Shown here: in pieces, positions 21,242 to 55,568 of the stretch
Position numbering within the stretch: the stretch's first letter is position 1
Layout of the letters: each line of letters opens with the position of its first letter
Assembly: GCA_950295325.1 (NCBI GenBank)
Contig: OX485806.1
Location: forward strand, 46,681,169 to 46,745,168
DNA from: Polytrichum commune
Lineage: Eukaryota > Streptophyta > Polytrichopsida > Polytrichales > Polytrichaceae
Reading direction: 5' to 3'
Length of the DNA stretch: 64,000 nt
Made by a program: the position numbers and the translations under genes
Notes under the pieces: model-generated
Databases searched by the model: none
What the model was told of the DNA's origin: nothing
What the model saw: only the letters and a program-made list of their open reading frames with translations

Positions 21242-22217
21242 TGTCGCAACCCTAGTTACCCCCCTTCACAATTTTTGCCAATTTTCATTTTTAGCAAGGG
21301 TCACGAGCGCTAACCCTTCGCATTCCGCCATGCTAATGGTTAGCTCCTCCTACCCCGGACCTTATAATTTATAAGAGGGGAACCAACCCTCCTAGTTTTC
21401 TCTTTCGAGACTCACCCCTTAACCGGTAACCAATCCATAGATGTGAATTTTCATCCATGGAAGTCTAATCCTATATTGATCATCACGTTGCCGGAGTAAC
21501 ACTACAACAACCCGAACCATATTAGGCAACTATGGCCTCACATTAGGCCAATGCTCATGGAGACCGTGCCGTTCGGCCTGGGGTGGGTAAGGCCACACCA
21601 CCTTATCCATATAAGCCTCTTGGACTTTTGGCGGGGCCCCTACCCCACCATCAAGAAACCTTTGTCTCTCTACCAAGAGTTGGGGCCAAGTAGACATTTT
21701 TCCTTAGCCGTTGGGCGTGAAAACCCCTAGCAGCTTCACACCATCATAACTTCCTCATTTGACATCTGATGCTAACAAACAACCACTCCATCTTCGTCTA
21801 CACTTCACGTTGATGCCAATGGACTCCTCACCTGCCTCATTTGGGCAAGTATTGAGGAAGTAATGCCTATTCAAACCTTGGCAGTCCCGGGAGCCACTCC
21901 CAGGCCAATCCTGTACCAGGGCGTTGTCCCGGGACAACGCCCCACTCAAATTGCCATAACTCCTACCTCACACCTCTAATTAAGGTGTTCTTAAGCATTC
22001 TAGAATCAACACGGCATAAGCTACGCATAGCTGGTGGCTTTACCTTCATGCCTCTTAGTCTACGTGGGTGGGAGGCGTTCCCAACGCCCGGGGCCTTCAT
22101 CCACACTAGGATCACTTTGGCCCTCTCACCAACAGCGCCACAAGTCCCGGGTGTTACTCCAGGGTCCCCTTTGTGCCCATGGTGTTTTGGGCACTCCTTA
22201 TGGAGCGGTGCGCGACA
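21242..22217. mobile_element. Solo LTR, copy 2
   Basis: Same ends and organisation as 9157-10127 (TGTCGCAACCC to GGTGCGCGACA). The flanks are 'tggat' and 'tgaat', a 5-bp target duplication with one difference. It contains a perfect 24-bp palindrome, GGGCGTTGTCCC followed by its exact complement, at about 21918-21941. No coding content. It looks whole as a solo LTR, of moderate age, and is inserted in repeat family X. Confidence 0.85.
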
Positions 22218-28348: not shown

Positions 28349-28979
28349 ACTCCATAAGCCATTCCTTCATAATTGTGTCTCAATTTCTATGTCAAGTTTT
28401 CCAAATCGATTTACTACATAAGCTACCTCGCTCTAACTTACGTAATACCTCATCTCATGTGAGTTACTATAAGAAATCTCAAGTTGCATTCACCATCACT
28501 CAACTTAACTATGTCTAAGCTAAAATTTTACTTTGCGTCCACCTTGAATAACTATGAAGAAGGTTGAATTTGAAGCTCAATAGCTTCACTAAGGTCGCAA
28601 ATATGTATTGTGAGGCCTCGTTTGGAGCCCGGGAGACATTTAAGGGTTTTTATAAAAGTGAGGCACCAAGAGTTTTGGAGCAGTTATTGGGGTAGTGAGA
28701 AAGAACCAAGCGGGGGGCTGGGGGAGAGATTGATTTGTCGACATGCTGCAGAACCACGGCGAAGCCCTAGAAGTTTCTAAAGAGAGCTGTTGGAGGTAAG
28801 GGGGAAAGAGGCCAGAGTTGAAGCGGCAACCCTGCTGCTCCTCGAACCTCTCTCCCCCTAGCCACCCACCTCTTGCGAAACTGAAGGGGCAAACACTGCG
28901 CGCTGATCCACCCCCACACAAATTTAAGACCCCCAGAGTCCGCCTAATAGCCACTCACTACACTTACAACCAAGCAAAC
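28349..28979. other. Unassigned flank upstream of the LINE
   Basis: The block 'gaggcctcgtttggagcccg' at 28614 resembles the ends of plant hAT/PIF-like miniature elements, but no matching opposite end was found. It may equally be the start of the LINE leader. No gene was seen. Confidence 0.3.
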
Positions 28980-29400
28980 CCGTCGTGAGAGACCGAACGC
29001 AGAAGAAGGGACTGCCGAGCGAGACCGAAAGAGGAAGGGCGAAGAAAGGAGCTGCACGACACAGCGAGATCTGCAACCAGCGGTGGAGAAGACTGAGTTG
29101 CAAGCTGCAGCGCGATCTACAGCTACAACGACGGAGATCTGCAACCAGCGACGGAGAAGAAGGAATCGCAAGATACTGCACAAGCTACAACGCGATCTAC
29201 AACTACAGCAACGGAGTAGGAGGGAGCAGCAAGCTACAAACCATAGCGCGATCTACAACCAAGCGACAGAGAAGAAAGGAAATACAAGCCACAACGAGAT
29301 CTGCAAACCACAGCACAATCTGCAGCTGCAACCGGGGAAGACGCCACCGAGAGAAGCCACCCAAGTTCCACACCAGCAGCCATAGCCGCGGGTAGAGGAA
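28980..29400 (+). repeat. LINE leader with monomer-like repeats
   Basis: This is GC-rich and repetitive. 'gatctgcaaccagcg.cgga' occurs at 29069 and 29133 (64 bp apart), and 'gcgatctaca.cta' at about 29112, 29191 and 29250. The words 'caagctacaa' and 'gacggagaagaa' recur between them. Tandem leader monomers that carry promoter activity are known in other LINEs; their promoter role here is inference. Confidence 0.55.
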
Positions 29401-29905
29401 TATAGAAAGATAGCTGCTATCATACCTCTTCTGAACATGCCGCAAATGTTTTGATCTCTTCCCGAACTTACACTCATCACTACCTCATACCAGTAGAGAA
29501 GGATAATAGACTTCCAGATCCCATCTCCAAACTTGTAGAAAGATACTTGACTTGTAGAAAAACGTTGCAATACTATAGAACAACAAGAAGACTGCGACCA
29601 ACGACATACTTGTGCTTTCTGTCGAAACCAATTCGGGGAGCTGCCGAAATTTGAATCAGTACTGACTGAGTGATCAACAGTAGAAGCGCCGTTGGAGGAT
29701 CTTACGCTGCCCAAGGAGAAGACCACTACAGTAACCGAGGAGGAAGATTATTGCTGCCCAGGGGAGAAAGCTGCCATTGCCAAAACTGTTGTCTAGCAAA
29801 CTGGACACCGAGCCAGAGAAGCAGCTGGAGCTCTTCAAGTCTGCTGCGGGTTGGGTACCCCGAGCACTGAGTAGGAGAGAGGTCCGGGCTTGATCATCTT
29901 TCTTG

Positions 29906-30589
29906 GTAAGTTTGCACGTTAATTTGTTTTCTCATTATTTGCACATAGGCACACACATAGTCTTAGACACATCATAGCATTGATAGATTTGTTAGGATAG
30001 TAAGCAAAATGAAGGTTGCATATGCAACCTACCTTGTTATCATTATGTGGCTAGTACTAGCCACACCATACTGGATATACTCTCATAGTGTCAACTCTCA
30101 CACCACATGGGAATGCCTTACAAACTCTTGCTTTAAAAACACATACAAGAACGTCATAAATCCAAAGGTATGGTATAACAACCTTAATGTCCATATCATA
30201 AATGAATGTTCCATTAGAAATAATGGATCCATGATAGTAACGGTAGATGCTTGTGCTTTTAGTTATACTTGCCTCAAATGCTTAGGAGATGTATGGAATG
30301 TTAGAGTTGTGACAAATCATAATCTACATAAGAGCTCTTACAACCAATTTGTAAATACTAATATGAAGATTCATATGAATAGGAAAAGGTGTTATCATAG
30401 GATGAATGCAAGTAGTACTCATACTAGTACTCATATGATGTTAGAACATGCAAATCACTTCTTCTTTCACTCTCAATTCCTAGGAGGCCCACAACTTAAT
30501 TTGTGGAAAGGAATTAGAGGAAAGAAAATAAGAAGTATATCTCATTCAAAACTAAAGTACAAAACGTTTGTTTGCTTTGCTTATATCAG
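29906..30589 (+). other. Probable GT-AG intron before ORF1
   Basis: The donor is CTTG|GTAAGT at 29906-29911. The acceptor is a T-rich run ending TTATATCAG at 30589, directly before 'a' and the ORF1 ATG at 30591. The intron would be 684 bp. The interior is also open in the ORF1 frame from an ATG at 30009 and begins with a hydrophobic segment (AYATYLVIIMWLVLATPYWI), so intron retention would give an N-terminally extended ORF1 product. Splicing is inferred from sequence only. Confidence 0.5.
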
Positions 30590-30590
30590 A

Positions 30591-32206
30591 ATGGCAACCA
30601 TCACTCCAACCTCATCATCCCGTAAGTTGTTTGAAAATGAAAATATAGATTCTACAAGTGGAAAACGTCTAGTGCTTGCTGTGGTATTGTCAAGTCAAAA
30701 GAAGGTCAAAGGAATAGTACCCACTGAGAGAATACGCCCCCCCTATTGGCTAGGTTTTCAAGCTATGAACACAATTGCAAAATTTGCTAACATGCCTCTC
30801 ATTCAAACACCTTCTTTCACTGAGTTAGTCAAAAAAGGTATGTGTGAGTCTGAAGCACATGAAATGGTGGAGTCATCTCCCTCCTTTCCGTTCGTTGCCC
30901 AAGAGTGGCCTTCTATACGAACGGATGGTAAGGAGGGAATGCACTACAATCTCACCCAGATTCCTTCGGATGTGGAAGTGGGTGACCATGGATTTGCTTT
31001 GGACTATCACATATCTATCCATTTTGAAATTGAAAGAATAGAATTGGATAGAGATGTGATACTCAACTTAACAAAGGATAGACTAAAAACAATGAGGATA
31101 GAGGTCGGGGAAGTTCTAGGAGAGCCCATAGCTGTCCTTTGTTTTCATGGGACCAAAAGATGGAGTGGAATATTAAACTCCACCTTAAAAACCCTGAAAT
31201 GGATGGATATGGCCTTCTCTGTGGATTGAGACCTTTCATCCTCAAGCTTGGCCAATTTACACATGCTATAGGCAAAGTGTGTAAATCCTTTGATACCATT
31301 GCAATTGCATCCATGCTCTCCGTCAAAATCACAACCCCGTCAATCAAGGGTAAAGAATGGTATGATTTGTTTGTAGAAATAGTTGGGGATGGATTTCGAC
31401 GGGGCCTTGACTTTGAAATAACGAATGTGCAAAAATCGGTGGATGCAGAGTTTGCTTGGATTAAAGCACCCTCTCCAGAGGAAGCCAAAAGAATTAAAAC
31501 ACTCAAACTTTCATTTTTTAATGAAATAGTAGATGTAAACTTTGCAAGTAATGAAAAACTCTCAGAAGATGATAAAGCCCGAAAGAATGCACTCATTCTA
31601 ATCGCCCGTAACCTCAATAAGGTAAAAACAACCATGCAAATCGAAGAAGGAATCCGAAAATGCATGGGAGAACTAAATGTTCTCGGTTTTTACTTTAGAC
31701 TTGAGAACGGGAAGCATACGGGCTCATGCAATGTCCAATGCCTCAACTCGTTTGTCTACAAGAAATTTGTTAAGAAAAATGAAAAAATATTTGGTAAATA
31801 TGTTGAATTTACCCCCCATCCAAAAAGTCTAGACGGGATAAATGCACCTAGTAAAGAAGAGCTAGTTAGACTTGGATTTTCAGACGTGAACACCGCACTT
31901 GCAAACACCATCCAAGCTCTGGAGAATGGACCGCACCAAAACATCACCAACAAAGATCTCAACAAAATAGTAGAAGCAGCGGTAAAAAAGGGGACGGATG
32001 AAATACGAAAGGAAATGGTGAACCTTAAAGATGAGATTGTGCAAGAGGCTAAGGTTTATGCCGACCATGTGCAAGCGGAGTCAAACAAGAATTCCAAGCT
32101 CCAAATACAACTCCTTCAAAGGCAAATGAAGATTACCTTGGATGCTATAGAAGCGGCTCATCCGGACATATCAGAAATTGAAAACAATATGGACTTGACA
32201 AACTAA
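30591..32206 (+). pseudogene. LINE ORF1, one frame change
   Basis: By position this is the RNA-binding ORF1 of the LINE. It starts at MATITPTSSSRKLF, just after the predicted acceptor. The first part reads to about 31145 in one frame and the rest (from about 31142) in the -1 frame: SWDQKMEWNIKLHLKNPEMD, YFRLENGKHTGSCNVQCLNS, EFTPHPKSLDGINAPSKEEL. The C-terminus has a heptad-like charged helix (EIRKEMVNLKDEIVQEAKVY). No canonical slippery heptamer is seen at the junction, so a single-base indel is the simplest reading. I do not recognise a named Pfam domain. Base composition is ordinary, unlike the A+C-rich ORF2. The stop is at 32204-32206. Confidence 0.7.
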
Positions 32207-32248
32207 TTTCGACAAACATCCCGGCGGCGTACAATTATAAATTACTTA

Positions 32249-32338
32249 TAGTATATTTATATACTAAAAACAAAAACAAAATTAAATTATTAATATATAC
32301 TAAAAATAAAACCCTACCTATAGTATTCATGAATACTA
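32249..32338 (+). promoter_or_regulatory. Twin hairpins in the ORF1-ORF2 spacer, ORF2 AUG in the second loop
   Basis: Two 18-nt inverted repeats share the same design. 32249-32266 reads TAGTATATTTATATACTA (7-bp stem, TTTA loop). 32321-32338 reads TAGTATTCATGAATACTA (7-bp stem, CATG loop, a perfect palindrome). Both are followed by A-rich sequence. The ATG of ORF2 (32329) sits in the second loop. The ORF2 frame is also open upstream to 32182, overlapping the ORF1 end. A role in reinitiation or internal initiation is inference. Confidence 0.6.
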
Positions 32339-32436
32339 AAATTCACAAAGAAAACCCCCCCAACACCTCACAAAAACAAATCTATTTACTCACAATACAA
32401 CAATATCCTAACCAATACAACAAAGTACACAATACG

Positions 32437-33036
32437 GCATCGGCCTACCGGCCTCGCCACAAAATAAAACTAACAAGATATATACACTACAACTCCCTCA
32501 ACCCCATCATTAACACAATCACAAAGCCTACCCACCAACATACTAAACCTATACACTACCTCCCAAAAACTACACAAAAAACAATAATTGCCTTACCTAA
32601 TCTATTTACAAGAAGTAAATATAAACTACTCGCCCTAAATAAACCTCACCTCAACATCAAACACCATCACAAACCCTATTTCAAACACCTATTAAACCTT
32701 CATTCAAAATACCAACCTCACCCAAAAGATACAATGGCCTCGGCCTACCGGCCTCGCCACACAAATAATAACACATACCACTTCATAAATAACTGGAGAC
32801 CTAACTCAATAACAAGCCAAAAATCTATAAAAAATACAAACTCACACTTCTCACCCAAACAAATAGAAAACATCATACACGCTATACCTAACTTCTTTAC
32901 TACAACCAAGTTCACAATCATAATATATCTAAAAACACACATGAAAAATCCAAAAACACTCCATTCCCACGGATACTACTTTATTAACAAACTAGAATTG
33001 CTAAAATGCGGGGACATAGAACCCAACCCCGGACCA
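32437..33036 (+). repeat. Tandem pair of 100-codon modules in ORF2
   Basis: Unit A is 32437-32736 and unit B is 32737-33036, each exactly 300 nt in frame. Both open with ASAYRPRH, encoded by an identical GC-rich block (cggcctaccggcctcgccac at 32441 and 32741) in otherwise A+C-rich DNA. Later matches are LPKTTQKTII..LPNLF versus SPKQIENIIHAIPNFF, H-x-H at position 76 and YF at position 81 of each unit. Unit B ends exactly on the Pro of NPGP. Unit A ends in YQPHPKD, a possible decayed equivalent. Confidence 0.75.
33001..33036 (+). other. 2A ribosome-skipping motif
   Basis: ORF2 reads LLKCGDIEPNPGP here, matching the 2A consensus D-x-E-x-N-P-G-P perfectly. In 2A peptides the ribosome fails to join the final Gly and Pro, releasing the upstream product and continuing downstream. 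The break would fall between codons 33031-33033 and 33034-33036. This would free a product of about 235 residues from the endonuclease/RT polyprotein. Function is inferred from the motif; no assay is possible here. Confidence 0.85.
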
Positions 33037-34275
33037 ATGCCTAACATCCTACATACACACCCTGCTACACACAAAAAAAGAGCCAACATCTACTTCATTC
33101 CAAACACTATAAAACTACAACCTGAATACCAACACATAGCAAACACATTTACCCCCATACTAAAAAACACACACCCACTACACCCTCAAGCAATAACCAC
33201 CTACCCGCATCTACATCAATATATCCAAACACAAAGGCAATCACCACTAACCCATATGCTATACGCTCTAATCATCACCATCCACCCCTCAATAGACACA
33301 TGCAATAACATACTAGCCCAACCCCAAAACTACCACTTTAATAACATATGGACGAACACACTGATTATCAGACTGGCCAACCTCACCAACCCCCCCGAAA
33401 GGCATATATCAACACCTCACCCCTACACAACTTTTGTAGGAAACAATCAAGATATAATATACCCAAAAAATTGAATACACACAGAGATATATGAATTTAT
33501 CCACAACCAAGATACTACACCAACACCAATCACCCTTCAAAATAAATTTCCCTTCCTCCCAAATCAATTGATCACCGAAGCACTCCGATGCCTAGAAAGC
33601 ATCAACGAATATTCACACCCACCCCCACCCCCAGCTACTCCCACACCAACCCCAAGAATTAACACAGACACCGAGCACGAAACAAACATAATAACATGGA
33701 ATGCGTTATCACTCAACACATCATTACCAAACCTACAAAGCCTAATAAACAACTCGCTAAACAACACAGCAATCATATATATCCAAGAAACCAAACTAAC
33801 CGCAAATAAATCTACAAAATACATACAAAACCTATTTCCAGAATTTAAACTCATTTTCAACAACACACATGCACTCACAAGATGCATACAACAAAGAATG
33901 CCCTATACCCCCGGAAAAGGAGGCTTACTCACACTTATCCACAAGAAATATGCATTCCCTGGGAATATCACCAAAATTCCCACGCCAGTAAATATATCTC
34001 CATACCTACAAATAATTAAAATAAACAACCATCCACTAATACCTTGGCTAATCATACACATGTACATGCCTACACACTTAGAAGACACATGCCTCATTCC
34101 ACAACTTAAGAACGAAATCACTAACCAAATCACTATACACCCCAATCACATGTATTCATTATGTGGGGACTTTAACCGAGATATCGCACTTAGAGGCAGA
34201 CAAATAACAACATTAACACCCCTCCACAAGCAGAAGATTACCAATGGAAAATTTTCACCGCATCACTCAACCTAG

Positions 34276-37200
34276 AATATATCCCAACTAACACTAGCAT
34301 CTCCAGACAAGGAGGCTATAATTATACATCAACAAGTCTAATAGATGGATTCTACATTCACTCACCAGACAACAACAAATTCATTTCTACCACAATCACA
34401 AACATGAATCTAAACTCAGACCATTATCCAGTTGTACTACATATCCCCCACAACACCCTTATAGCCAGATCCCCACCCCCCACAAACACGTCACCAACTA
34501 GAATACTAAATCCAATACCACCAGAAAACATCGAAAAATTCAACATAACATTCTTCGAAGAAAACTCTGCACAAATAAAAGCCCTTACCACCCTACTCGA
34601 AAACCACCAACACTTAAGGCCGGATCAATGGGCGGAAGCCTGTACAACATTCGACCACATTGTATACAAAATTTCAGAAACGATTGAAGAAACCTGTAAA
34701 GCAGACCCACTACCCAACCTTACGAACAGAACATCACAACAAGGTGGGTTTTTGCCACGCAAACTTGCGAGAAAATGGAAAAGACACCTCAACACATATC
34801 ACCTCATCAGGAAAACCATATACATTGCACAACACGATCCACTCTGGCAAGCACACCCCATCCTAAACGATATACGAAACCACCAACACACAAACATCCC
34901 ACACCCACCTGGTACAACGGCACCTCCTACTGAATGGATTGATGCCATAGCAACCATCGCAAAAAATGCAAATAAAGAAGCCAGGAAAATCACCACAAAA
35001 TACACCAAAGACTGCATTCTAAAGGCCGTATCAAAATACCGTCAAATGTATGAAAAAAACCCCAAAAAGATAAATCGAAAAGTCTTCAAGAACACTGAAA
35101 CCTCACCCCTGGACTCCATCATTGATAGACAAAACAATATATTAACTAACCCAGAAGACATCGCAGCAGAAATATACACGCAACAATCCATCAGTAACCG
35201 TCCTACAGTTCCCACATGCCAATATCAAAATACACACCCATTACACTGCACATGTGGAGTCCGGCAATATCCATGGCATGACTTAGACGGATATATCATT
35301 GACAAACGAGGAAAACCCCAAATCCCTCTACACACGTATTTTGACCAAGAAATATACGACTTTTGTCTTAAAAACCTAAGTAATAACAAAGCCCCAGGCC
35401 CAGACAAAATACCCAATTCAATTCTAAAAAACATGCCTCCACGCTTCCATAAATTACTCTTCTTATTTTTTAAACATTGTTATAAACAAAAACAAATCCC
35501 TGCATCATGGAAAACCAGTCTAACAGTTTTACTATACAAAAAAGGTAACCCATCACAACTAACAAACCATAGACCTATTGCACTAGCTAACACCATATAT
35601 AAATTCTACACGAGTACATTAACTTCTATCCTATCAGCGTATGGAGAAAAATACCAAATATTACACGATAGTCAAGAAGGGTTTAGAGCAGAGAGAAGCA
35701 CTTCTAGGCAAATCCAATTATTAATCGCAGCGCTTGAAGACGCAAGACTCACGAACCAAGATATATATATTCTTTACATTGACTTCAAAAATGCCTTCGG
35801 CTCCATTGATCACGCCAGACTTTTAGCCATAATGAAAGATCTGGGATATCCCACTGACTCCATAAATCTCATAGGAAACATATATTCACAATCCTCAACA
35901 ATATTCACTGGTGAACACTTCGGTAAAACCTTACCAATCCCCATTCAAAGAGGTACAATACAAGGTGATACCCTTAGCCCATATCTATTTATCATATTCC
36001 TAGAACCCCTCCTCAGATGGCTACAACAAGGGAATAATGGATACACTTTTGGTACATCTAAAATTACAATCTCATCAGCAGCATATGCAGATGACCTAGC
36101 AGCAATCGCCAATAAACTAGAGACACTACAAACACAACTCAACAAACTAGACAAATTCTGCGAATGGGCAGGAATGGATCTTGGAATACCCAAATGCGCA
36201 ATAACTGGATGCCCAAACAAATCCAAACTTCACCCCACAACCTTTAAAGCCCTAATCCAATCTACCAATATCAACTACAGAAACCAACCTATACCAGTCT
36301 TAAACCAACATGAACCATACACGTATCTAGGAATAAATCTTGCACCATCACTCAAATGGAAAACACAAATAAATACCACTACAGCTAAAGTAATAAAACA
36401 GTGTCAAGCCCTTGTAACATGCCCAGCTACTATGAAACAAAAAATAAACATGGCAGATACAGTCATACGTGCTGGAATAGCATACAGCTTCTACGCAGTG
36501 CCATACTCCATACCAGCTATCAAAAAACTCGATAAAAAAATCATAGCACTTCACAAAACGATATGCGGAATACCCAAATGCACATCTAACATCGCTACAC
36601 AACTCCCACACAATCTATTCGGAATCGAAGCATTCTCACTACAAAATGCCTATTTAAGATGCATTGGAGAACAACTACAAAACGCACTCAATGATAAAGG
36701 TAGAATTGGGAAAATATATGTTGGTCTACTTCAATTCATACTCGCCAAATATGGGGGCTCTAAGGAAATCACCCGCATTAAATACCACCACTGTGTTAGA
36801 TCACCCATCACTAGAACATTATTCTTGCTCAAACATAAAGCCGGAGTCCACCTAAAAAGTACAATAAACAATTTCCTACTAACCCCATCCCCACTTGAAA
36901 CTGCATGGATGCAGGAAGCACAAATGCTTCATGGCCTAAATTCCAACACCTCACTTAAATTACTACACAAACTACTTGTACATAATATAATCACACTAGA
37001 CCAAATTACCATGCCTAATGGTACCACTCTAATGAACCCGAACGAATTCAAAATCTACCACTTCACTCCTTCTAAACTTATCAAAAGCGCACTTAACATA
37101 GCTAATCAATTATTTTGCCACCCTCCTGGAAATCAATGCCCCCTACCATGCCAACAACACCATCCACTAAGATCCCTAAAAAATAAATATATAATAAGAC

Positions 37201-37325
37201 ACCACAATATCTTACCACACCCATCAACCGCCCCCGTACACCCCCTAACCTCCCCATCCCCCCTCTACCCCCTCCTCCCAACAACATGCTTAAAGACCCC
37301 CGACAATTCCCCATACACAAAATAA
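34276..37325 (+). pseudogene. LINE ORF2, reverse transcriptase part
   Basis: This frame is open from about 34200, and its own first ATG is at 34404. It begins with the end of the AP endonuclease (SDHYPV) and then carries a full LINE reverse transcriptase. Motifs in order are NNKAPGPDKIPNSIL, NHRPIALANTIYKF, QEGFRAERST, ILYIDFKNAFGSIDHARLL (near 35775), IQRGTIQGDTLSPYLFIIFL (near 35945), and AYADDLAAIA with YADD at 36084-36095. The catalytic Asp residues are all present. The RT copies the element RNA from the nicked target. The frame runs out at 37325 in a Pro-rich stretch, where the next frame takes over (37286 onward), consistent with a one-base indel in C-rich DNA. Confidence 0.92.
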
Positions 37326-40057
37326 TCGATCATAAACAAAAACAATCCAATGACCATAACGGAATAAAAAGAACAGTCACGTCGTACTTATGTCAATGGA
37401 CTACAACAAATAACAACACATATAACAAATGGCGAACTCAAAGGGACCTATACCCCTACTGTGAAGCCAACACATGTAATCACAACACAGACCTACTTAT
37501 TCATTACTACAAAGAAAGACAACACAAACTTTTTTCAAACATAATTAATGCCTACTTCTCCACAGAACAACATAGAGACACAAGATACGTCACACCAACC
37601 ACAATAATTCCACTAGCACATATCTCTATTAATGAATGCAACCCAGAAAACGACATCGAAACAAACTCTGATACCATCCAAACACAATTCGATGTCGCTC
37701 ACATATACGAAGACAATGGCCGACACCTCATTACCATCCCGAAAGCTAGACTAACATGGCTATGGAAACAATTCCAATTGGCAAAAAACAACACACACGG
37801 TCTAGAACCATCTACCCAATCGTTCGAAACTGAAATTGTTTGGTTATACCAAAGGTACAAATACCGTATCCCAAAAAATGACCCACTCAAACGAGCCCAA
37901 TATACAATACCAACCCAAATATTAGATCTCCTAATTACAACATTCAATATTAACCACTCATATTTTTCATCCCCAGTTACATGCCCCACACAATTCACCC
38001 AATTCTACTCACCATTCTCGCGAGACATAATATTTGGATCCCTAGGTAAAGCGTTTGACCATAAATGGCAAGGAATCGGTTACGCACACCCTCATAATAC
38101 AACAGACCTACAACAAGCTATTCACTGGGCGCGCATAGCGGCCCAAAATGATCCATATACAATCACTATACTTATATCTCCGGATACTAATTGGTACCAA
38201 AACTCCAACCCACACACAGGCCCATTCCCAGACACACACGTCATTGCCCATTTCGCCGCTGATACGATCACATATGAGGAACCCACAATACCCTCCGAGC
38301 TCAATACCACAAGAAAAGAACCATCTACCATACAAATATTTTGTATCCATCACCAAAACAATAACATAGGCACCTGCGAACAAATGAAATTAATAAGCGA
38401 CACAGCAAATAACCTCCAAATACTACAAAGTCACACACAAACTGCACCACCCACCCCTCTAAACACCACCGTTAACCCTAGTAAAAAATGGGCTAAATCA
38501 AACTACCCAAACACACCCCTACACAATAATATCCCCATCCCACAACTTCCAAACTACCAAACTAACTTACCGCTAAAATTCCACCCCCAATTTAGCTACT
38601 ACACGGACGGATCCTTTATAAAACCCAAAGAAATTGCCCCTGGGGTATGGAGAAGAGAAAGAGCTGGATACGGTATCTATAGCCCCAAAGGCTTAAATAT
38701 CGCCAAAAGACTCCATGGGCATCAAAACATACTACGTGCAGAAATGATGGCTATACACAAAACACTAAGAATCATCAATACAAAATTCCCTAATGAACCC
38801 GCATACATATTCACAGACAGTCTAAACGTATTATACCTACTCAATACACAAATTAAACACCCCACTCTCCACAATAGTCACCCCGACCAAACCACACTCA
38901 ACTCCATGGTAAAAATCCTCCAAGACCGTACACAGCCAATCACACTATACAAAGTCAGAGCACACGTCAACATTGACGGTAATGAAAAAGCGGATAAACT
39001 AGCAAAAGCCGGGTTAGAATTAGAACACAGAATTGCCATCCACCCATACGAACATGCCCACGCCATCCCGTACTATTACCAAAAGGACGTCTGGGCCTCG
39101 ATGGCAGACGTCCCAGACAAAGGCCCAGTAAGATTCTTAGAAAAACAAATTAAAAAATATGATAGGGAAACCAATATAGCAATCATGGCCACACAAACCC
39201 CCAACACGTGTAAATGGACAGAAAATAGAGACATTGACAAAGAACTGTCCAACGAATTCTGGACAAATCCCTTAATCACAGACAAACAAAAATCATGCCT
39301 TATTAAATTCCGTACAGGAACATACATGGGTAATGCTAGAAAACAAATGTTCTTCGGTCACCAGAGGTACCCCTCTATCACATGCCCTATATGCAATTCA
39401 AACGATCCAGACACTTGGCTACATGTTCTACTGAAATGCAACCAACAACATATACACTCACTACGAATTAAAAGACATAACAAAGCAGTCGGAGAAATTA
39501 GGAAGCTTCTAATCTCATCCGAAAAATCCCGATGTTTTACTCTCATGAATGCCGGTACCTTCAATAATAACCCCCAAGAAAATACAGTCCCCAATTGGCT
39601 ACTCCCCTGTACATGTAACACACAAAGATGTCATTGCAACGCAAGATTTCGACCTGATATACTCTGCGTTAAAGGATTACCATATCAAAATGACCCTCCC
39701 ATTGACATTGACCCTAACCTCACCATACAATTTATTGAATTCACATATTGTAACGACAGATTTTCCCCAGAAACAATAGAAGCAAAAAACAACAAATACA
39801 AACCTTTGATTGATAGTATTGCTTCCAGAGGATGGAAAATCGAACCACTTATTATCATCACAGCTGGGGCCCGAGCTACGGCCCACATCCCATCTATGAA
39901 AATACTAGAAGAAAATCTCAAAATACCCCTGGTTACCATCAAAAATACCTTTAAAAACATTAATACCATTGCAATACAATATGCCATGTCCATCCTCCTC
40001 CATAAGAGGAGAATTGAAAACCACCAACCGCTCCCCCAAAACTTAGACCCTCCATAA
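37286..40057 (+). pseudogene. LINE ORF2, RNase H, CCHC and RLE-like part
   Basis: This continues ORF2 in the -1 frame. The RNase H domain has the four acidic residues in their usual contexts: YYTDGS (near 38600), LRAEMMAIHK (near 38730), IFTDSLNVLY (near 38810) and GNEKADKLA (near 38980). A CCHC knuckle of the form C-x2-C-x9-H-x4-C follows at 39383-39439 and is trailed by RIKRHN, the arrangement usual before restriction-like endonucleases. The C-terminal 150 residues contain RFRPDILCV (near 39640), IQFIEFTYCNDRF (near 39728) and EAKNNKYKPL, matching the PD-(D/E)xK spacing of those enzymes. RNase H and CCHC are firm; the endonuclease call is likely but needs a profile search. ORF2 ends at a TAA at 40055-40057. 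Confidence 0.85.
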
Positions 40058-40107
40058 AACCCACCCAAAACAAAAAACAAAAAACAAAAAACAAAAAAAA
40101 AAAAAAA
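40058..40107 (+). other. LINE 3' end and A-rich tail
   Basis: A very short 3' UTR leads into repeated 'acaaaaa' units and a terminal A run ending at 40107. The tail is only lightly interrupted by C, which fits a fairly recent insertion. The flank begins 'cttatataatatttag'. Confidence 0.8.
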
Positions 40108-40129
40108 CTTATATAATATTTAGTATCTA

Positions 40130-41339: not shown

Positions 41340-44297
41340 TCTGGATTACTTCCGGTGATCGACTCCCCATGAGTTTTGAATGCACCAAATTAGAGTTGCC
41401 ACAATGTCTTTAATGCTATGGGGGCAACCCTTGACGCGGGTACATTTTTCTGCATCTGACAACATGCACCAAATCCCAATGTTGGTTGCATTGACCACGA
41501 CCCTCGCAGTGCAAACAACCATGGTAGTTACCAAGTGACCGCTCCATTCTCCAGAAGACTAAGTAATGCATACTCATGACTTCATTTCTCTGGAGAAACT
41601 AGTACCTTAATCTCTTTAAGGACAATTTATCTTGCTCTTAAATGGTCGGCTATGGTGATTGCGAGTTTTTGGATTACAAAAAACTGGGGTGACACTTTCA
41701 CTTACAGGTACATTTTAGCAACATCCATCGTGAAAGACTTGGTTGTGTTTATCGACACATGATAGAGAGATGTTGCTTTCGATTCTTCATAGAACATCAT
41801 CACATAGTTTTTTGGAACCATCTTTGTTTCCGACTGTATGAACATTGTAACCTTCAACTCCATGGATGCAACATTGCTACAACAAACTTAAATAAAGATG
41901 AAGGCCTATCCCATGCTTCTGTGCTTTAGAAATCGCACCTCACATCTATTATTCGTCAAACAAAACACAGCTCCTTGCCCCTTCTCGGCACTCGCTCGCA
42001 ACAAGAACCCATGCCAACCCATTCCAAACCCTAGTCAATCCACGCCAACCCACACCAAACCTTGCCAACCCATGTGTTGACCCACGCCGACCCATGCCAA
42101 CCCACTCCAATCCCCACCCCAACCCACACCAACCCGCTTGCCAATTTGTAATATTAGTTCAAAATCTAGAAGAAAATACCCCTTTGCAAAACACCAGTCT
42201 TGGATTATTCTTTGCAAAAATTCACATCTACATGTGTTCAAATTCATTGGTACCAATGACAACATTCCATTGCGCAACATCATTGGAATTCCAGTTAATA
42301 TATTATGGCCTAATAATCACAAAAATTTGTGAAAGTGCTTTGTAAATGCCAAATTTGTCATGTTATTGAATGTTTTTTATTGTAAAATTTCACACGCAAG
42401 CTAGAGTTGAAAAGGTGAGCTCATCTCAACACAAAAATAGTGTCATTGGGAAAATCATGTACAAATGAGTTGTGATCATAGGGTGCAAGTGACACGAAAG
42501 GCGTACCTCCATGATGTGGTTGTTATGAAAATGGGCATGTGGATGCTCCGAGAACTTCCACCGCCTCTCCATCATAAATGAAAGCACTCATGCACGCTAA
42601 GTTTGAACACAATGATGCTTCAGCAAAATTCCTATAAAATGAAAAATCTTGATGAATTTGGCCGTCATGTAAATAGGTAAAAAAATGCAATGTTGGGAAT
42701 GGGGAACAAGTTCACCAAATTGGGACAACAAGATTGACAAGTTGAGCCCTATAAGCCCATCTTCCACTGTCACCATCACCGCTAAAACTTGGTGGCATCC
42801 TCCAATCCCATCTTTGGAGGCAATGGCGGACGACCTCATGTTTGCATTGCGGAACACTTGCAAACCTTGCAAGTAGATCTACATCAAAAAAACTCAAACT
42901 CAATTGTTGCAAATCAAATTGGTTTTATTCATGTCAAGTTTTTCAATTTGCTCTAAACATGACATGAATACAAAACTCTTTAGTCAGGGGTTGTTTACAC
43001 CATGGACCATGAAGTCATCTGAGGGCTCTATAAAAGTGTTTATGAAACATATCCTCATTCGCAAAAATCAACAATAATGAGCATCAAGACTGTATTAATG
43101 AGCTTCATGGGCACATGTAGCACAATGCAAACTCTACCAGTCCTATCAGGACCCTTACATATCAAGAAAATTACATATTAAATAGCATTAAGTATGATCA
43201 TGGGCTTAACCACTTCAACAGTCCTACCATCACCAACATCACTCAACCCACTTACATAGGAAACCACCCAAATGATCTTGATGGCCTAACGAAGTCTATC
43301 AATCCTATTCTCACCAATGAAGCTCAACCAAATGACAAATAAGATTGTCATGCATTGATCATGTTGGCCACACATTCTTTAGCAACAAATTGGAAAGATC
43401 ATTGCATTTTTTGAAAGTTGTCCTTGCATTGGAATGTATTCTATAAACCTTGAAGATTCACACATGCATATTCATATATATTTTATTCAAAATAATTAAA
43501 ATTGCGATATTCATTCTAGATTTCTCTTGTATAGGCGCAAATAGGATCCTAGCCACACCGTCATTCTGCATTTTACATTGAGAAGCTAAGATTGTGGAGG
43601 CATGTTTTCATCCCCTGTCACAAACAATGGGAAATCCTCATAAAAAATATGACCAATGTTGACCTTAAACATTCCTTCTGCAATATTCAACCTATGGAAT
43701 AGTTCTCCAACACACCCGGAGACAGTGCAACACTTGGCAATTTTTGTGTCTCACTCATCATGATGGTATAAATTCACCAATTTTTTTTACCATGCTCTAT
43801 GGGTGTATCAATAATATGAGTATAGTCAATGTTGAGCATGAGTGAAACCGTTTAAAAAATAACACCTCGTCACAAAGTTCAATGTAGTGATACCTCAAAA
43901 TAATCATAATTATCACATAAGGGGTTTTTTGGGGGGATAAATTTGCCCTATTACTAACCACCTTTAGTGTTCATTTACATTGTCGAGTAGATAACCTGAT
44001 GTTGCCCCTTCCTCTTATTCTTTCGGCATTTTGCACATATATAACAATAGACCATGGTGTATTTTTCTGTGGGTAGGAAAAATTTATATAGGGAGGCGGA
44101 TGAGAAGGTATTAATTTTTTCATAGTGGCAAGAATGTATAGTTTACACTTACGTTCTGAGAAGTAGGCACAATAAATGTCATTCCAGGTTTTGTAGAACA
44201 TTCGTTTTCTATGCCCAATGCTTGATCCTTTGCAAGATTTTTCTTTATGCATTCAAGTTTTTTAAAATTACTATTTTGTGGGGGGGGGGAGGGCGAG
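41340..44297 (-). repeat. Dispersed repeat family X, copy 2 (left part)
   Basis: 42,240-44,260 aligns with 19,935-21,180 of copy 1 through many shared words (gcgcaacatca, ccacaccgtcattc, caatgttgaccttaaacatt, tgatgttgcc). Minus-strand fragments resemble those of copy 1 but are broken. A C-rich array lies at 41998-42135. The right end is interrupted at 44298 by the gag-bearing insertion, close to the place where copy 1 is interrupted by a solo LTR. No protein family was recognised. Confidence 0.6.
41998..42135 (+). repeat. C-rich 'ccaaccca' minisatellite
   Basis: Variants of 'ccatgccaaccca' are repeated about ten times with substitutions. The minus strand is G-rich and could form G-quadruplex-like structures. 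It resembles a mirror of the G/T-rich array at 15590-15855 but the unit differs. Confidence 0.7.
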
Positions 44298-47200
44298 TGT
44301 GGGAGCACACGAACACCAAAAATTCCGGATAGGCATTTTTTAATGCCTAATCCGGTCTGTTCGGATGATCCGAGTATCGTCCAGGGATTATGTGAAGTGC
44401 AGGGTGTCAGGGACACATTTTTTCTGCTTGAAAATCGACCACCGGCCGGGTTGACTTTCCGGATCCGGATAGTCATTTGGAAGTCCTTATTCCGGGACTT
44501 CCCTTCCGGAATGAACCTCTATAATTAAGTCTTACTCCTACATGCATCTTTCCTCAATACCTACTTACCTACTTCCTACCTCCATTGATGATTGGGTTCA
44601 TCCGGTGAAGACGTCCCTATATGGTCAGAATCCGGATTTCTCTCACAACTAGTCCGGATCGGCCTAATATTTCCTAGCAAGTCACACAGAGAATCCGGAT
44701 GGTTCCCGGAACTACAACGACATAAAAGTCAGGATTCGGCCGGAGATCTGTTAATCCGGGATAACTGGGCGATCCGTGCCACTTTCCGGATTATCCCGCC
44801 CAAAGACTGTGAGACCTCTTCAAAAGGTCGGATGGCGTAAGTCCGACACCTCCCTGATCTTACCCAGTCCTAACGACGGCTATCTCACATGGACGTTACC
44901 CAGGCATCCGGAATAATGAGGTTTCCTTCCCATTACACGCCGGAAATGACCTCCGGACCGGAATCCTAACTGTTCCGGATTCTCTCCTCTTTCCGACAGA
45001 CCAATCCGGCTACAACGAACTTAGGCTCTACTAAATCTGAGATAACTGGGCGATCCATACCACTTTCCGGATTGCCCCGCCCAGGATCCGTGAGACCTCT
45101 TCAGAAGGTCGGATGGCGTAAGTCCGGCATCTCCCTAATCTTACCTAGTCCTAACGACGGCTATCTCACACGGGCGTTACCCAAACATCCGGAATAATGA
45201 GGTTTCCTTCCCACTACACTCAGAAAGGATCCATAGTATTGTAGTCGGATCCGATCCGGGTTTCCTCTCCTTTGTCCTATCCGTACTTCCTACTCATTCA
45301 TTCCCTCTAGATCTGCAATATTCTCCTAACAATCCGTGCACAAAAAAGTCAGAATAGATGGAGAACTAGAGCTTTATTGAGTAGGGAGCAGCAACATACA
45401 ACATCGGAGAAGAGATCCCTTCTCAAGCTTCTTATTCAGCCTTAAGTAGAGGCCACAATCCCTAACTACTGGTGGTGGCCCAAGTGGCCACCCAGAAAAC
45501 CCCAAGTGACGAGAAATCCAGAAACGCGTCCTTCACGGAATTTCCGGATCTCGATCCGCTTTTCGCGCTGACAAAAATTTGAATTTACAGTTTTGTCAAA
45601 ACCCAAAAAGGGGATTTCCTAACTCTACCTACCTAATTCTGAACTACCTACTCCTGATCTACCTAATGCTAATCTGCCTAAGCCTAATCTAAGTGGTGCG
45701 GTGCTTCTTCAAAGTTGTCCCTTCCTTGGTTTGACTCGCGGGCCCGCTGATGGCAAAAGAGCCTCCCCCGGGGGTCAAAAGTCGTCGCTCCTGCAACCTC
45801 GTAAATACCCTCCTCATGTTTGGGGAAGGGGCGACCTCTTCTTCGGAATCGTCTGCCGCGGCCGGATCCTCTCCCGATCCGTCACCCGATCCGGATCGCG
45901 TTGCACCGGAAGCATTCTTCTCCTTTCGGGACCTCTGGCCAGGTGAGGGGTCACTTCTGGTGGCCCGCTCCTTGTTCCGGCCACATGAGACGGAAGTCGT
46001 CCGGGGATCCCTCGCGGACATCGCATGTGAGGGTGGAGGAGCCCACGGCTCCACTATCATGCAGTCAAGAGCAGGAACGGGCGAAACCTGCGATACCAGT
46101 GCCTTACCCCTATCCAGAGTCTTCGTCCGATCCGGCGTCCTCATCCTTTCCGGAGTTCTAGCCCTCTTCGGCATTCCGGACCGCCCTGACGCCCTACCGT
46201 GACCCGGATTCGGTGATTGTCCCCGTTCGGACCTGGCTGACCATTCTATACTTTTCCGTCGAACTAGGGATGAGCAGGGCCGTTCCGGAATAGGGGTCTT
46301 ATCTCGATCCGGAACTCTTCCAGATTCCGGTAGCTGGGAAGTTCCGGCTGGCTGACTGGGCCCCGCACCCGCCTGTGAGGCCAGAACCAGTTCCACCTCC
46401 CCAATAACCTCATACAGAGTGCCCATCAGAGATCCGGGTGGACTCGGATAGAGCATCCACCTGGGGGTACCACCTGGCAGTAGCTTCTGGATCTCCTTGA
46501 GCAGATCCTTTATCGAGTGGGAGTACTTTACCAGGATTGGGAGCGTTTGCTGGGCGGAAGACGGATCCGCTGACTCCATCAACTGGTCGTAGAGGTGTGC
46601 CTTGTTGACGATCTCTCCTGGATGGCCCACTAACTCCCGGACCCAGCTCAAAACCACAATTTGTTCCGCCTAGTACTTCCGGATTTCTTCGCTCTTCTGG
46701 GCGAGCTCCCGGGTCATAGCGGCCACCTGTGCCGCCAGCTATGCCTTCTCCGTCTCCAGGGTCTCCACTTGTTTCCGGTTTGTCCGCTTGGCCAACTCCC
46801 GGAGGATAATTCAGGGTCCACAATTGCCTAGGGCCCTGTTCACTCCCCGGGTGATGTGCTCCATCCGGAAGTACTGGTTGTGGAGCTCCGTCAACTCATC
46901 CCGGATGCGCTTAAAGGGGGCTTCCGGAAACTCAAAGGTGGAGAGGTCGATGTCTTTCCAGGGAATTTCCCGGCTGGGTCCTGCTTCCTATCGGGGCGGT
47001 GGCGAGGCGGGTTTCCGGACCTTCTGAGGAGACGAAACCAGAGGTGGTTCCAGAACCGCTGTGTCGCTCGAGTCCTCTGCTTCGGTCTCCGCAACTTCGA
47101 CTTCCGAACCAATCTTGTACACCACCTCATCTTCCGCTATTGTCAGCATGTCCTCCTCTTCTTTGTTGATGCAACCGTGGTGCTGGTAGAGGTGGAGGAT

Positions 47201-48255
47201 GTAAGGGGAAAGAAAGGAGGGTTTCCGACCAATGTGGGGGATGGATTTCTCTACATACTCCTAAATTAATCTACCCCAATTTACAGGCCGGACTCCGGAC
47301 ATGGCCCCGAACAGGGTGTTAGCTTGGGCTTTTCCGGACTAAAGATGGGGAGAATGAATTCTATGACTCTCCTCTCTCTAAGGTCCCGGCAATTCCCGGG
47401 ATGGAATCCGTCCTTCGGATCTGGGTCCGTTCGGAATTTCCCTACGTAAAAACTATCCTGGCGGCTAGCCCAGCCCAGACCTCCGACGTCCATTTCTACG
47501 GCTCCTGCCTCATTGTCCGAATCCACTGATTGCCTCTCTCAAACAGGAATTCCCGCAATGTGGCCTCCGCCCGGAGATTCCAGGGTTTGGCAAGTAATCC
47601 CTCGCAACCCATCCGACTAAGGTCCTCTATGAGCTCCTTCAGCTCGGAATCTCTCTTCGGGGTGGCCGGCGATACCGGTTTCACGGGAATTGGGACCTGC
47701 TCCCTCTCATCTTCCTCTCGCGCTTTTGGCATTTTACTTTGCACCCTCAATCCTTTAACAATCCCCGGCTTCTTCCCTCCGAAATTCTATCCGCTAACCA
47801 CTAAGGAATCCCAGCAAACCAGCTGCTGGTGACTCAAAAAACAGCTCACCACTCGTTCTCTCAACAATGCCGCTCGCGCAAATGGCTCGGAGAAGGAGAA
47901 AAATTCCCTTAAGTATTATCCCCCTCTTCCTCTAACAGGTCTAGGTCCGTAACCATTTCCTCCGCAACCATTCAGATTCCGTTGCAACCGTTCGGATTCC
48001 GGTGTAACCGTTTTCCGGACCGGACCGTTTCGGGCCGGATCGTTTAAAAACGATCTCCCCGAATTAAGTTCTGGTCCATCCAAATGGTCCGTTATAATCA
48101 TTTTAACGCGTAAGGCGGATGCTTAGAACCTTATTTCATAAAACAACTAACCTACCCTAGGAAATCCTACTTTGAGACCAATACCAAGGTATTATCCGGA
48201 TATTAATCCGGTTAGGAAGCCAATCCGGATTTTCGTAGATTTTTGGGCTCCCATA
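44298..48255 (-). mobile_element. Complete gag-bearing retroelement-like insertion without visible pol
   Basis: The ends are TGTGGGAGC at 44298 and GGGCTCCCATA at 48255, flanked by an exact 5-bp duplication, GCGAG (44293-44297 and 48256-48260). Minus-strand frames between about 47750 and 45690 look gag-like: FHPGNCRDLRERRVIEFILP near 47370, and a long serine/proline/basic stretch (REKNASGATRSGSGDGSGED near 45900). The sense 3' region holds AATAAA (complement at 45373-45378) and a tandem duplication. No reverse transcriptase or integrase was seen, so it would be non-autonomous. It looks broken by a few breaks (perhaps three or more) and is younger than repeat family X, into which it inserted. 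A partial relative lies at 1-1140. I could not find a direct LTR pair. Confidence 0.7.
44757..45230. repeat. Tandem duplication inside the gag-bearing insertion
   Basis: 'gataactgggcgatcc' at about 44760 recurs at about 45040. 'gtgagacctcttcaaaaggt', 'cctaacgacggctatctcac' and 'ccggaataatgaggtttcc' follow in both. The period is about 283 bp. The second unit is truncated. Confidence 0.8.
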
Positions 48256-49200: not shown

Positions 49201-52086
49201 GTAGTTGGAGTCGTCTTTAGACCTTTGCAACGCATTTTTTGCGCTTAACCTTGGAGGTATTTGGTCGTTGCACAAGAAAACCTTCCTCCTCAACGCCCCC
49301 TCCCTCTTCGTCACTCTTTTCTTCCTTTGCGTTCCTTTTTTCCTACATGCTACCTCCACAGTCCCCTCTATCCTCTTTGTCCTTTTTTTTTCCACAACCA
49401 CTTGCCTATGCGTGGCCTCCCGCCTTTCTACCTCTTCTCGCCTTTGGTCTTTGAAGTTGGCCTCCCAATTCCCTCTTCCCTCATTTGCATGCCTCAATTT
49501 GCACTGCCCTCTCCCTTCGATGCACTAGAATCTTGGTTGTAAGGAGTCAGCGCCAAGAAGCTTGACCTTTCCACTTGCCTAGTCAACTCCAACGTCAATG
49601 AACCGTTATAAATTAACATGCCTAAACAATCCCAAACAACCAGGCTTGGACAATTTCTCCATGCAAAGGAAGGATTATACGCATACAACTCACACGTGTG
49701 GCCACATACAATACCCATGTTGACTACATGGCTAAGGTGGGTACCACATTCACCATGTTTGGTGACTGTCACCTACATGGCAACCGTGTAGGTAGACGAC
49801 CCATTACAAGTACTTGCAGGATGTAAGGCCTATGCTCATGTTTAAATTTCTTTGCCAATAACCCAATGATGATTAGATATTATTGTACATTATTGCGTTA
49901 ACAAAAATTATGCCTAAATTCGTGATAGTTTAGTCAATTAAGCATATGTGGACTTATTAAAACACTACATAGGTGTGACCAAAGTGGGTAGTCTTCATGA
50001 ATGCATACTTTACAATGTTTACAAACAACCAATGTGCGTGGATAAATTAAAGAGAGAGGGAAAAAATAAAAACAGGTGCATATTCCGATTCTACCCAATT
50101 CAAAACTTTGGTGCGTGATGACCTTCATGGAACATATTTCTTACAATTTCAAAACTGATGCCAATGGCCAACCACCACCTTTAATTGCACAAAACCTCAA
50201 AATATAGCGAAGAAATAACACCTATAAAATGTCTACAAAAACATATGATCATCAATTTCTCTGTTCAAATTGGTAAGGTCATTTGCAAATCACACCAATG
50301 TTGTTGAACAAGTCACTTGAGTTGAGATTATAGCAATTGGTTACTCTACTTATTGGGATGGCAACGTCAGTTGGATGGAATCACTTGCAATTGCAATAAC
50401 CATTTGCATGTTGTGTTTTTACGAGAAAATGGTTTATCTATGCGTATAAAAAAATGTTTGACGTAGTGCTATAGGGGTTCACGTACATATGCATTTGGAA
50501 TTTGTATTTAACTTCTTCTACATACATCAACAGGTAGACATTTTTGTGGAAGGAATTGGGCCCACCAACCTTGATATATATGACATGGTAGGATTTTTAT
50601 ATGAAACAATGTTAAACACCATGCATAACTTGAGAAAGCCATGGAATTCTCCAATATGCTTGTATAGACATCTACATATTTATGCATGTTTACATCCCTA
50701 TTTCAATTGTATTTTGGTGTGTTCTCTAACATAATGCAATAGATTTGTTGTAGAATTATTAAGCATATATAAAAACCCAATATACATACCACACCACCAA
50801 CATGGGAGACCCAACGCCTCAATGTGACTGAATGGATCCTATATGTGTCGCAATGTAGGATGAGAAATTATGGCATTGAGAGAAGGCCATGTATGCACAA
50901 CACCACATAAAATATGTGGTTTGCCCTTGCAAACTTTGCAAAGGGAGGAGTAAACACATGGCAATGGACACAACTCGAAATCATCTCATGGAAAATGAGT
51001 GACATACTTCTTCACAAGATGAAGAGGCCCAAGTGCGAGGGACAAATCTGGTGATGAATGGGATAACCACGTTTGTGGCGGTAGAGCCTCCTCCCCCAAC
51101 TTCCAGTGGACGAGAATGTTGGACTACAAAGGTTGTTTCAAAATGTGAATGCTATCTCACCCACAATTGTCCCTCCAACCCATGAACCTCATGGTGCAAT
51201 TCCTGAAGAATAATAAAACCTTAGAGATATGGCGCCAAATTGGGAAGATGTAGATTAGATGACCACGTTATAGAGGTTGTCCAACAAATCTAGACCATTG
51301 TGGATAATGTGCAAGCATAGGCAAGTTCTATGGAAGAGCATGGCAGAGTGATGGTAGAGATTGTTGCATCTACATCTAGATATCCACTTGGCAGACCTAA
51401 AATGAACGTCAGGATAACGGGTCCAAAGGACATGCCTCAAGATGTTATTGAGGATTTGAATATGATAGATGTTTTGTTGTCATGCCACCCCTTGTTTTTG
51501 GGGATCTCTGTGATAAAATTAGCCAAATTCAACCAAATTCTCTACCTTCAACATGTACCATGCTAAGGTGCTCATGGAGAAAGTCGGTGTGAGCCCGAAA
51601 AACATACTCATATGTTAATTAACCCTAATGCAAGCATTGGGAAAGAAAAGCAAGCAAAAGGGGTGAACCTCATCTTTAGGAAAAAAAAGAAAACAAAAAG
51701 TTAAGTGAAGTTACCATGTGCGGGGAGGTGGAACCTAAAAAGGGAGAAAATACCAACTAGAAGGGCCAAACCTGGTTTTTCTTTGGGGTGGCCCGAAAAT
51801 GCTGGGCAGCGCAAAAAAAAGGAGAAGATTGGAGGGGTCTTAGGAGGTAGGAGAGAGGAGAGCTTAGTATGCATGCGAGGGAAAGGGGCATGAAAATAGG
51901 AGGCGGAAACGTTGCCTCAACTTTGAAAGGGGAGTGTCTGAGCCATGATCATCCCTACCTTTAATTGCATCGTGGTCCAGGTGAGGGATCCCCCTTCCAC
52001 CCTTGTCATAAATCACCCATTACAATGTATGGCTTCCCCACGTCAATTGTTGAATTGATGCATTGAAATTTTTTTCTTTATTATAA
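49201..52086. other. Unassigned stretch
   Basis: No recognisable gene. A plus-strand frame at 51330-51566 (RVMVEIVASTSRYPLGRPKM) has natural composition but no family I know and no extension. Pyrimidine-rich sequence at 49,260-49,500 makes open frames on both strands that look incidental. Confidence 0.35.
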
Positions 52087-55000: not shown

Positions 55001-55568
55001 GCCCTCTTACGGAGGCGAGGAAGACGATAGTTTCTATAACTACCTAAGGGCACCTAAGCCCGTGCCTATAGTTCTAACTACTCCCTATAGTTCAACTATC
55101 TTCATCCGACTGGATGAACTTCATCTATTTACTACCTCTTTGCTCACAGTTGAACTAAGAGACCAAAAATTTGGCTCACACACACCAGAGAGAGCGACCT
55201 TGGCACTGAGCATTCCCTCATCCTCTCGACTGGATCCTATAATTCAGGCTCCGTCCCAGTTGGGAAGGTCTCCCGGTCCTTAAACGAACAGTCCTCAAGA
55301 CTAAAACAAACTCAAACCCAGCCCTCAACCCTTAAAACTTCCATCACTCCACTCAACCTTAATTAATTCCACAATTTTTAAGAGTTTTTTTTTTGCAATA
55401 ATTCAACCCCCCTAAGCCCCACTAACATCTTAAGACTAACTTACTTAAATCGAATCCTAACCTTCCACTCTTTTTATTTCCCTTCATAAACTCAAAATGA
55501 CACTGCTCTAACTTTTTAATGTTTCCTTGGCCTCGCTGAAGCATGTGGGCACAAAAATGGGCTCACAT
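52087..55568 (-). mobile_element. LTR-like 3' region of a Ty3/gypsy relic
   Basis: Immediately beyond the pol C-terminus (minus sense) the sequence begins TGTGAGCCCATTTTTGTGCCC at 55568, like the LTR-like segment at 28348. The following C/T-rich DNA lacks genes, repeats words such as 'gacgatagtt' and 'acaatagt', and may be one long LTR or an LTR plus other debris. The left boundary at about 52.1-53.2 kb is not resolved. The element is old and broken. Confidence 0.4.

Follow-up and report, generated by a model that had tools for sequence, protein, structure and literature searches.

The question raised by this locus is whether a LINE in a land-plant-like genome carries a genuine 2A (StopGo) peptide, and what such a peptide would separate. 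An earlier note on this DNA, a window of 64,000 nucleotides analysed here over its whole length, had reported a perfect D-x-E-x-N-P-G-P in ORF2 of the LINE, between an N-terminal region and the AP endonuclease. The motif and its placement were both confirmed, in an open frame at 32998–33036. The span proposed for it, 32996–33040, holds the real motif, but reading from base 32996 gives a different frame with stops. The peptide and the frame that carries it are located as follows:

32182–33471, plus strand: N-terminal open frame of ORF2, ending at TGA 33472–33474
32998–33036, plus strand: 2A/StopGo peptide LLKCGDIEPNPGP, L-L-K-C-G-D-I-E-P-N-P-G-P, 13 codons, in the N-terminal part of ORF2
33031–33033 (Gly codon) / 33034–33036 (Pro codon), plus strand: predicted skipped bond within LLKCGDIEPNPGP

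The core DIEPNPGP (33013–33036) matches D(V/I)ExNPGP, the pattern of 2A/StopGo peptides, which has been expanded to (D/G/C/N)(V/I)ExNPGP (PMC12846837, PNAS 2026, in excerpt). In the available text of that paper, the upstream classes for cores with D as first residue (p12) are L-rich and close with (A/S/C)G. Compared by eye, ELLKCG, immediately 5' of the core, shows this context. A six-frame scan of the 64-kb window found no other D-x-E-x-N-P-G-P, and NPGP strings numbered two, LLKCGDIEPNPGP and CSPNPGP on the minus strand near 375, which has no D-x-E. Under a second-order Markov model, the expected number of D[VI]ExNPGP is 3.6e-5 on the plus strand of the window and 3.1e-5 on the minus strand, about 7e-5 in sum, and under the LINE's own composition it is 3.3e-6 on the plus strand. 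With the upstream LLx[CSA]G added, the expectations are 2.3e-9 (plus), 2.8e-9 (minus) and 4.6e-11 (LINE composition), for a longer pattern that was drawn up post hoc, with the motif already known. The frame holding the motif was considered coding sequence because it runs for 421 codons from 32209 without an internal stop, as against 30 and 24 stops in the remaining two frames. A second copy of the LINE family was looked for in the window, and none was found.

The first in-frame ATG past 32206 lies at 32329, which places 235 codons ahead of the Gly-Pro skip bond. This N-terminal part (32329–33033) has a predicted pI of 10.2, with 34 Lys+Arg residues against 6 Asp+Glu, a basicity that an A- and C-rich composition alone would favour. 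No known domain was found in the module by Pfam, and N-terminal pieces of the window gave no BLAST match to the relatives described below at 1e-3. The module contains a tandem duplication:

32437–32736, plus strand: duplication unit R1, 100 aa, starting ASAYRPRH and ending QPHPKDTM, without 2A
32737–33036, plus strand: duplication unit R2, starting ASAYRPRH and ending EPNPGP, with the 2A at its end

The alignment of R1 with R2 scored 120, where the best shuffle reached 75, and without the exactly shared ASAYRPRH it scored 89, where the best shuffle reached 66; none of 1000 shuffles reached the score in either case. The local alignment ends immediately 5' of the 2A, and the aligned R1 is without one. 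A third unit after the 2A was also considered and was rejected, as its score of 65 fell to 40 once the overlap was removed, a value reached by 354 of 1000 shuffles. At the nucleotide level, an exact GC-rich 21-mer occurs at 32441–32461 and 32741–32761, a spacing of exactly 300 bases in a duplication that has diverged elsewhere, and the RNA of its first copy forms a hairpin (z −3.3).

Downstream of the motif, the domain order is AP endonuclease, RT, PCIF1-like domain, RNase H, zinc knuckle and restriction-like endonuclease (RLE). This copy of the LINE is broken, by the TGA at 33472–33474 and by frame changes between 34194 and 34272 and between 37187 and 37322. L015 in the list is one of the relatives.

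30010–32206, plus strand: upstream open frames, with a frame change near 31.2 kb
33475–34272, plus strand: AP endonuclease, first part (Pfam Exo_endo_phos, E 0.0058; 16.9 bits, below the 24.5 cut-off)
35544–36341, plus strand: RT core with AYADDLA (Pfam RVT_1, 6.9e-30), in the open frame 34194–37322
37790–38080, plus strand: PCIF1-like domain between RT and RNase H (PF12237, 1.1e-10; 2.2e-11 when excised)
38594–39016, plus strand: RNase H (Pfam RNase_H, 2.6e-13) with D, E, D, H, D, aligned with L015
39383–39439, plus strand: zinc knuckle CX2CX9HX4C, 5' of the C-terminal nuclease, its Cys/His columns kept in L015
39650–39840 (end approximate), plus strand: RLE motif RPD...E...YC, aligned with L015
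40067–40107, plus strand: A-rich 3' tail (AAAACAA)n, the end of the LINE

The AP endonuclease motifs were read by eye as NIITWN, IIYIQETK and SLCGDFNRD, followed by SLIDGF and SDHYPV in the next frame past 34194; at 1e-3, BLAST gave no match between this domain and L015, L002 or L001. By eye, the usual residues of an AP endonuclease are all there, divided by the frame change at 34194–34272. The best solved-structure matches of the RT were R2 RTs (1.7e-30). The PCIF1-like domain has AHPH in place of PCIF1's NPPF, its match to solved PCIF1 was only 0.12, and the structure model of this part was too poor for use (pLDDT 42). By alignment the domain also occurs in L015 and L002, with HP at the place of PCIF1's NPPF. 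Among the literature matches listed, none describes a PCIF1-like domain inside a LINE. The RNase H stretch VRAHVNIDGNEKAD retains the His. The RLE part had no PDB match, and its fold model was poor (pLDDT 33). A search for a target-site duplication gave nothing convincing: the longest word shared near the tail has 11 bases and lies inside the element. The upstream frames have no Pfam family above the cut-off and a nearly neutral GC skew, unlike ORF2. Their end at 32206 falls within the 200-base stretch in which ORF2's strong excess of C over G sets in. They are possibly ORF1 of the element, or possibly a separate or interrupted gene.

Relatives of the element were obtained from an alignment-based RT scan of genome contigs, which gave at least 10 loci; an earlier scan of genome contigs for LINE relatives had given no match. 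The closest among the matches listed were L001 (RT E 4e-85) and L002 (4e-83). The window RT is 37% identical to L002 in alignment and matches L001 by BLAST at 1e-91. L001, L002, L015 and L022 are taken as eukaryotic contamination in the reference bacterial bins G001 and G002, for L001 and L002 (GC 0.56 and 0.54) because they were found in bacterial bins whose titles share a sample prefix. L015 has a 3038-residue open frame with an AP endonuclease, RT, PCIF1-like region, RNase H, knuckle and RLE. Pfam at E 1 listed its AP endonuclease, RT and RNase H, with PCIF1 absent from the list, and the PCIF1-like region of the window aligned with L015 at 7e-7 and with L002 at 1e-5 (PCIF1 by Pfam 9.4e-6 in L002, below the cut-off), at the same place between RT and RNase H. 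The stretch from RNase H to RLE aligned with L015 at E 1.6e-26 over 513 columns, with no difference between the two in the R-P-D, the E or the knuckle residues. Support for the C-terminal RLE came from the relatives, the PDB search and the fold model having given none. In an RT tree of 14 rows, the window grouped with L001, L002 and L015 (85/98, the ultrafast bootstrap being under the program's own mark of 95 and a reference Dualen RT being absent from the rows), apart from two R2 RTs. Elsewhere, the viral collection gave no LINE relatives by single queries, by RT alignment against R2 or by lineage alignment, a tblastn search of plasmids with the RT yielded a single weak match, to bacterial sequence (29%), and surveys of the genomes around G001 and around G002 (150 in each survey) returned only these two bins.

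The relatives also carry a protease. In L022 (3–4082), a contig of G001, a frame of 1360 residues includes a Josephin domain at residues 1060–1216 (1.6e-8) and, by eye, a second Josephin-like domain upstream of the first, GTHDCQVHAMNNLLG, with a weak match of 4.2e-4. The contig stops short of the AP endonuclease, and L022 was placed before it because of a 34% match to the L001 stretch directly 5' of L001's AP endonuclease. The Josephin match of L001 itself is weak (0.023), and by eye the domain is split across two frames. A worn Josephin domain was proposed by eye in the window between the 2A and the AP endonuclease (SPLTHMLYAL...IHTEIYEF), and the HMM test gave it no support: HMMs of the relatives' Josephin domains scored −0.6 and −1.8 bits on the window, values that 252 and 847 of 2000 shuffles exceeded.

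The 2A itself was not found in the relatives. D-x-E-x-N-P-G-P was absent from the 26 loci examined, several of which are the same contig again and most of which belong to other lineages, and (V/I/M)ExNPGP was absent from bins G001 and G002. L015 has one NPGP, without D-x-E. This absence is informative for L001 and L022 alone because only these cover the sequence 5' of the AP endonuclease at length; L002 falls short of the AP endonuclease, and L015 begins about 80 residues before it. In the search for LINE relatives, a back-translated pattern matched 4 contigs, all of which encoded unrelated proteins on translation.

Judged by its predicted domains, the element is a Dualen-like LINE with the two-endonuclease plan of Dualen/RandI, a type that the earlier note had overlooked; on the same grounds it is not an ordinary plant LINE. 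Dualen/RandI elements combine an AP endonuclease and a PD-(D/E)XK endonuclease (PMC3636483 and PMC4640811, in excerpt). The window element has an AP endonuclease (Pfam 0.0058, below the cut-off, plus residues by eye) together with an RLE, and its RNase H (Pfam 2.6e-13) lies between the RT and the RLE, as in Dualen/RandI. The original description of Dualen reportedly included a cysteine protease in the N-terminal part. We use the term Dualen-like, which leaves room for strict membership, because this protease was tested for in the window with the Josephin HMMs and was not found.

The host was assessed from trinucleotide composition. In the flanks of the LINE (outside 28401–40110), CAG and CTG reach only 0.55 and 0.53 of the numbers that the Markov model predicts (z −10.8 and −14.1), CAA, CAC and CAT are not depleted (1.02–1.13), and TAG is in excess (1.24). 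Land plants typically methylate CHG sites, and the depletion looks like C-to-T decay at methylated CHG sites, a land-plant-like pattern. In stretches of 4 kb, CAG+CTG is at most 0.84 in 15 of 16, the exception being 44001–48000 (0.99), with 52001–56000 weak (0.82), and CAH is 0.97–1.19. The stretches over the LINE give 0.74 and 0.84, a milder depletion that is consistent with a younger insertion. By the same CAG+CTG measure, contigs of other origin (L002, L003, L004, L008 and L022) give 0.96–1.04, and a value of 0.84 alone is not distinctive because L015 also gives 0.84. CAG/CTG depletion with TAG excess may serve as a host-kingdom signature for eukaryotic windows. A further mobile element is present in the window:

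55889–56467, minus strand: decayed Ty3-type integrase piece (Pfam rve, 1.8e-6, below the cut-off)

The integrase had no match in the viral collection. Repeats of one dispersed family, about 900 bases in size, lie at 9188–10115, 21275–22205 and 58519–58966 and are 67–95% alike over matched pieces. Rfam and tRNA scans of the window found nothing.

We consider it probable that the motif is a genuine StopGo (2A) peptide inherited from an active ancestor of this broken Dualen/RandI-like land-plant LINE, where it split a basic N-terminal protein from the replicase. During translation of ORF2, the ribosome would be stalled at NPG|P by the nascent LELLKCGDIEPNPG chain, which would be released after Gly before translation resumed from Pro. 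The first product would be a strongly basic protein built from the two diverged tandem repeats, each about 100 residues long; it may have been a partner that binds RNA, in the manner of an ORF1 product. The second would be one replicase with AP endonuclease, RT, PCIF1-like domain, RNase H and RLE, without a split between the enzymes. The motif lies at the border of the basic duplicated module and the enzyme part, which argues for this reading; against it are the single decayed copy, the lack of the motif in the relatives found, an R1 without 2A and an N-terminal module without a known domain. The motif, its frame, the duplication, the domain order and the CHG signature were observed; that the ribosome skips, how efficiently, and what the N-terminal protein does are inferred. 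The earlier note had the 2A release the modules of the replicase. This part of its interpretation was not supported, as a single 2A would detach no more than the basic N-terminal part and leave the enzymes as one protein. Its 2A motif in N-terminal ORF2, before the AP endonuclease, was supported, and the surrounding DNA has a land-plant-like CHG signature.

Several other readings were weighed. The motif could be a chance string, never functional, in the low-complexity A-/C-rich N-terminal extension of a dead element. Its occurrence in one copy, its absence from relatives and its low-complexity surroundings without a recognised domain would fit; however, only about 7e-5 strings of the form D[VI]ExNPGP are expected in the window and 3e-6 in LINE composition, and the motif stands in the correct frame with a fitting upstream context, so we regard chance as very unlikely. 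Another reading accepts the 2A and has it chiefly yield fused and unfused replicase, with the N-terminal part tagging the non-skipping fraction for targeting or for RNA binding. Such a use is known from sea urchin NLR proteins, where N-terminal 2A sequences of 26 residues mediate dual targeting (PMC4981915, in excerpt), and the N-terminal part here is basic (pI 10.2). At 235 residues with two repeated units, it far exceeds the sea urchin sequences, and a mainly two-form replicase appears unlikely.

The window might also come from an alga, a fungus or a contaminant rather than a land plant, in which case the host novelty would drop and the LINE type would stand. Dualen/RandI is listed under green algae only in the available text of PMC4438587 and is reported from cryptophytes in that of PMC12747079, and no plant gene was identified in the window. 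Against such an origin are the CAG+CTG depletion in nearly all 4-kb stretches with CAH near expectation, the decayed Ty3-type integrase and the several repeat families, and we judge it quite unlikely. A further proposal builds on the preferred StopGo reading: in a land-plant branch of dual-endonuclease LINEs, StopGo may have replaced a Josephin-like protease 5' of the AP endonuclease, the protease being gone or unrecognisable and the 2A closing the duplicated basic module in that region. It is put forward because relatives have the protease and this element has the 2A, a comparison of one plant copy with one foreign lineage, and we offer it as a tentative possibility. If true, it would mean natural StopGo use in plants, within a new LINE lineage, and recoding instead of polyprotein cleavage.

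StopGo peptides are widely used in plant biotechnology, and 2A is active in plant cells (PMC4981915 and PMC12371167, in excerpt). The available text of PMC12846837 reports no evidence of natural StopGo use by plant viruses and describes cellular use as rare. The claim that no land-plant LINE with a 2A had been described agrees with the literature matches listed, none of which reports one, Odon 2013 and Rao 2025 lying outside their coverage; none is mentioned in the excerpts of PMC8226300, PMC3747384, PMC8623073, PMC5348765, PMC11512398 and PMC5009743. A land-plant LINE with StopGo would mean that natural peptides of this kind do reach the translation machinery of plants. The range of 2A would also widen to include a dual-endonuclease lineage that PMC4438587, in excerpt, lists only for green algae, and protease and recoding could be compared as ways to split similar replicases.

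The element can be set beside known systems. It shares with Dualen/RandI the AP endonuclease, the PD-(D/E)XK endonuclease, RT and RNase H, and differs in having a 2A, no detectable cysteine protease and a land-plant-like host; no Dualen in a land plant was among the literature matches listed. With plant L1 it has AP endonuclease, RT and RNase H in common. The RNase H of plant L1 is archaeal-like with Arg for His (PMC4640811, in excerpt), and the element is considered not to be a plant L1 because its own RNase H retains this His. It also carries an RLE, which plant L1 is not known to have. The R2 group has an RLE without an AP endonuclease, whereas the window element has AP endonuclease residues (by eye; Pfam 0.0058) and an RT apart from the two R2 RTs. 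Among the relatives, L015 has the identical domain order and L002 a PCIF1-like domain likewise placed; the differences are the Josephin-like cysteine protease, present in L022 and weakly in L001, and the 2A, found in the window element and not in the relatives. In known 2A LINEs the 2A reportedly stands before the AP endonuclease, and the 2A-bearing animal clades are reportedly Rex1, Crack, L2, L2A and CR1 (attributed to Odon 2013). The animal and trypanosome 2A non-LTR elements (Ingi/L1Tc) share with the window element a 2A core in the element's protein and separation within a single frame, but the window lineage has two endonucleases, RNase H, a PCIF1-like domain and a land-plant-like host.
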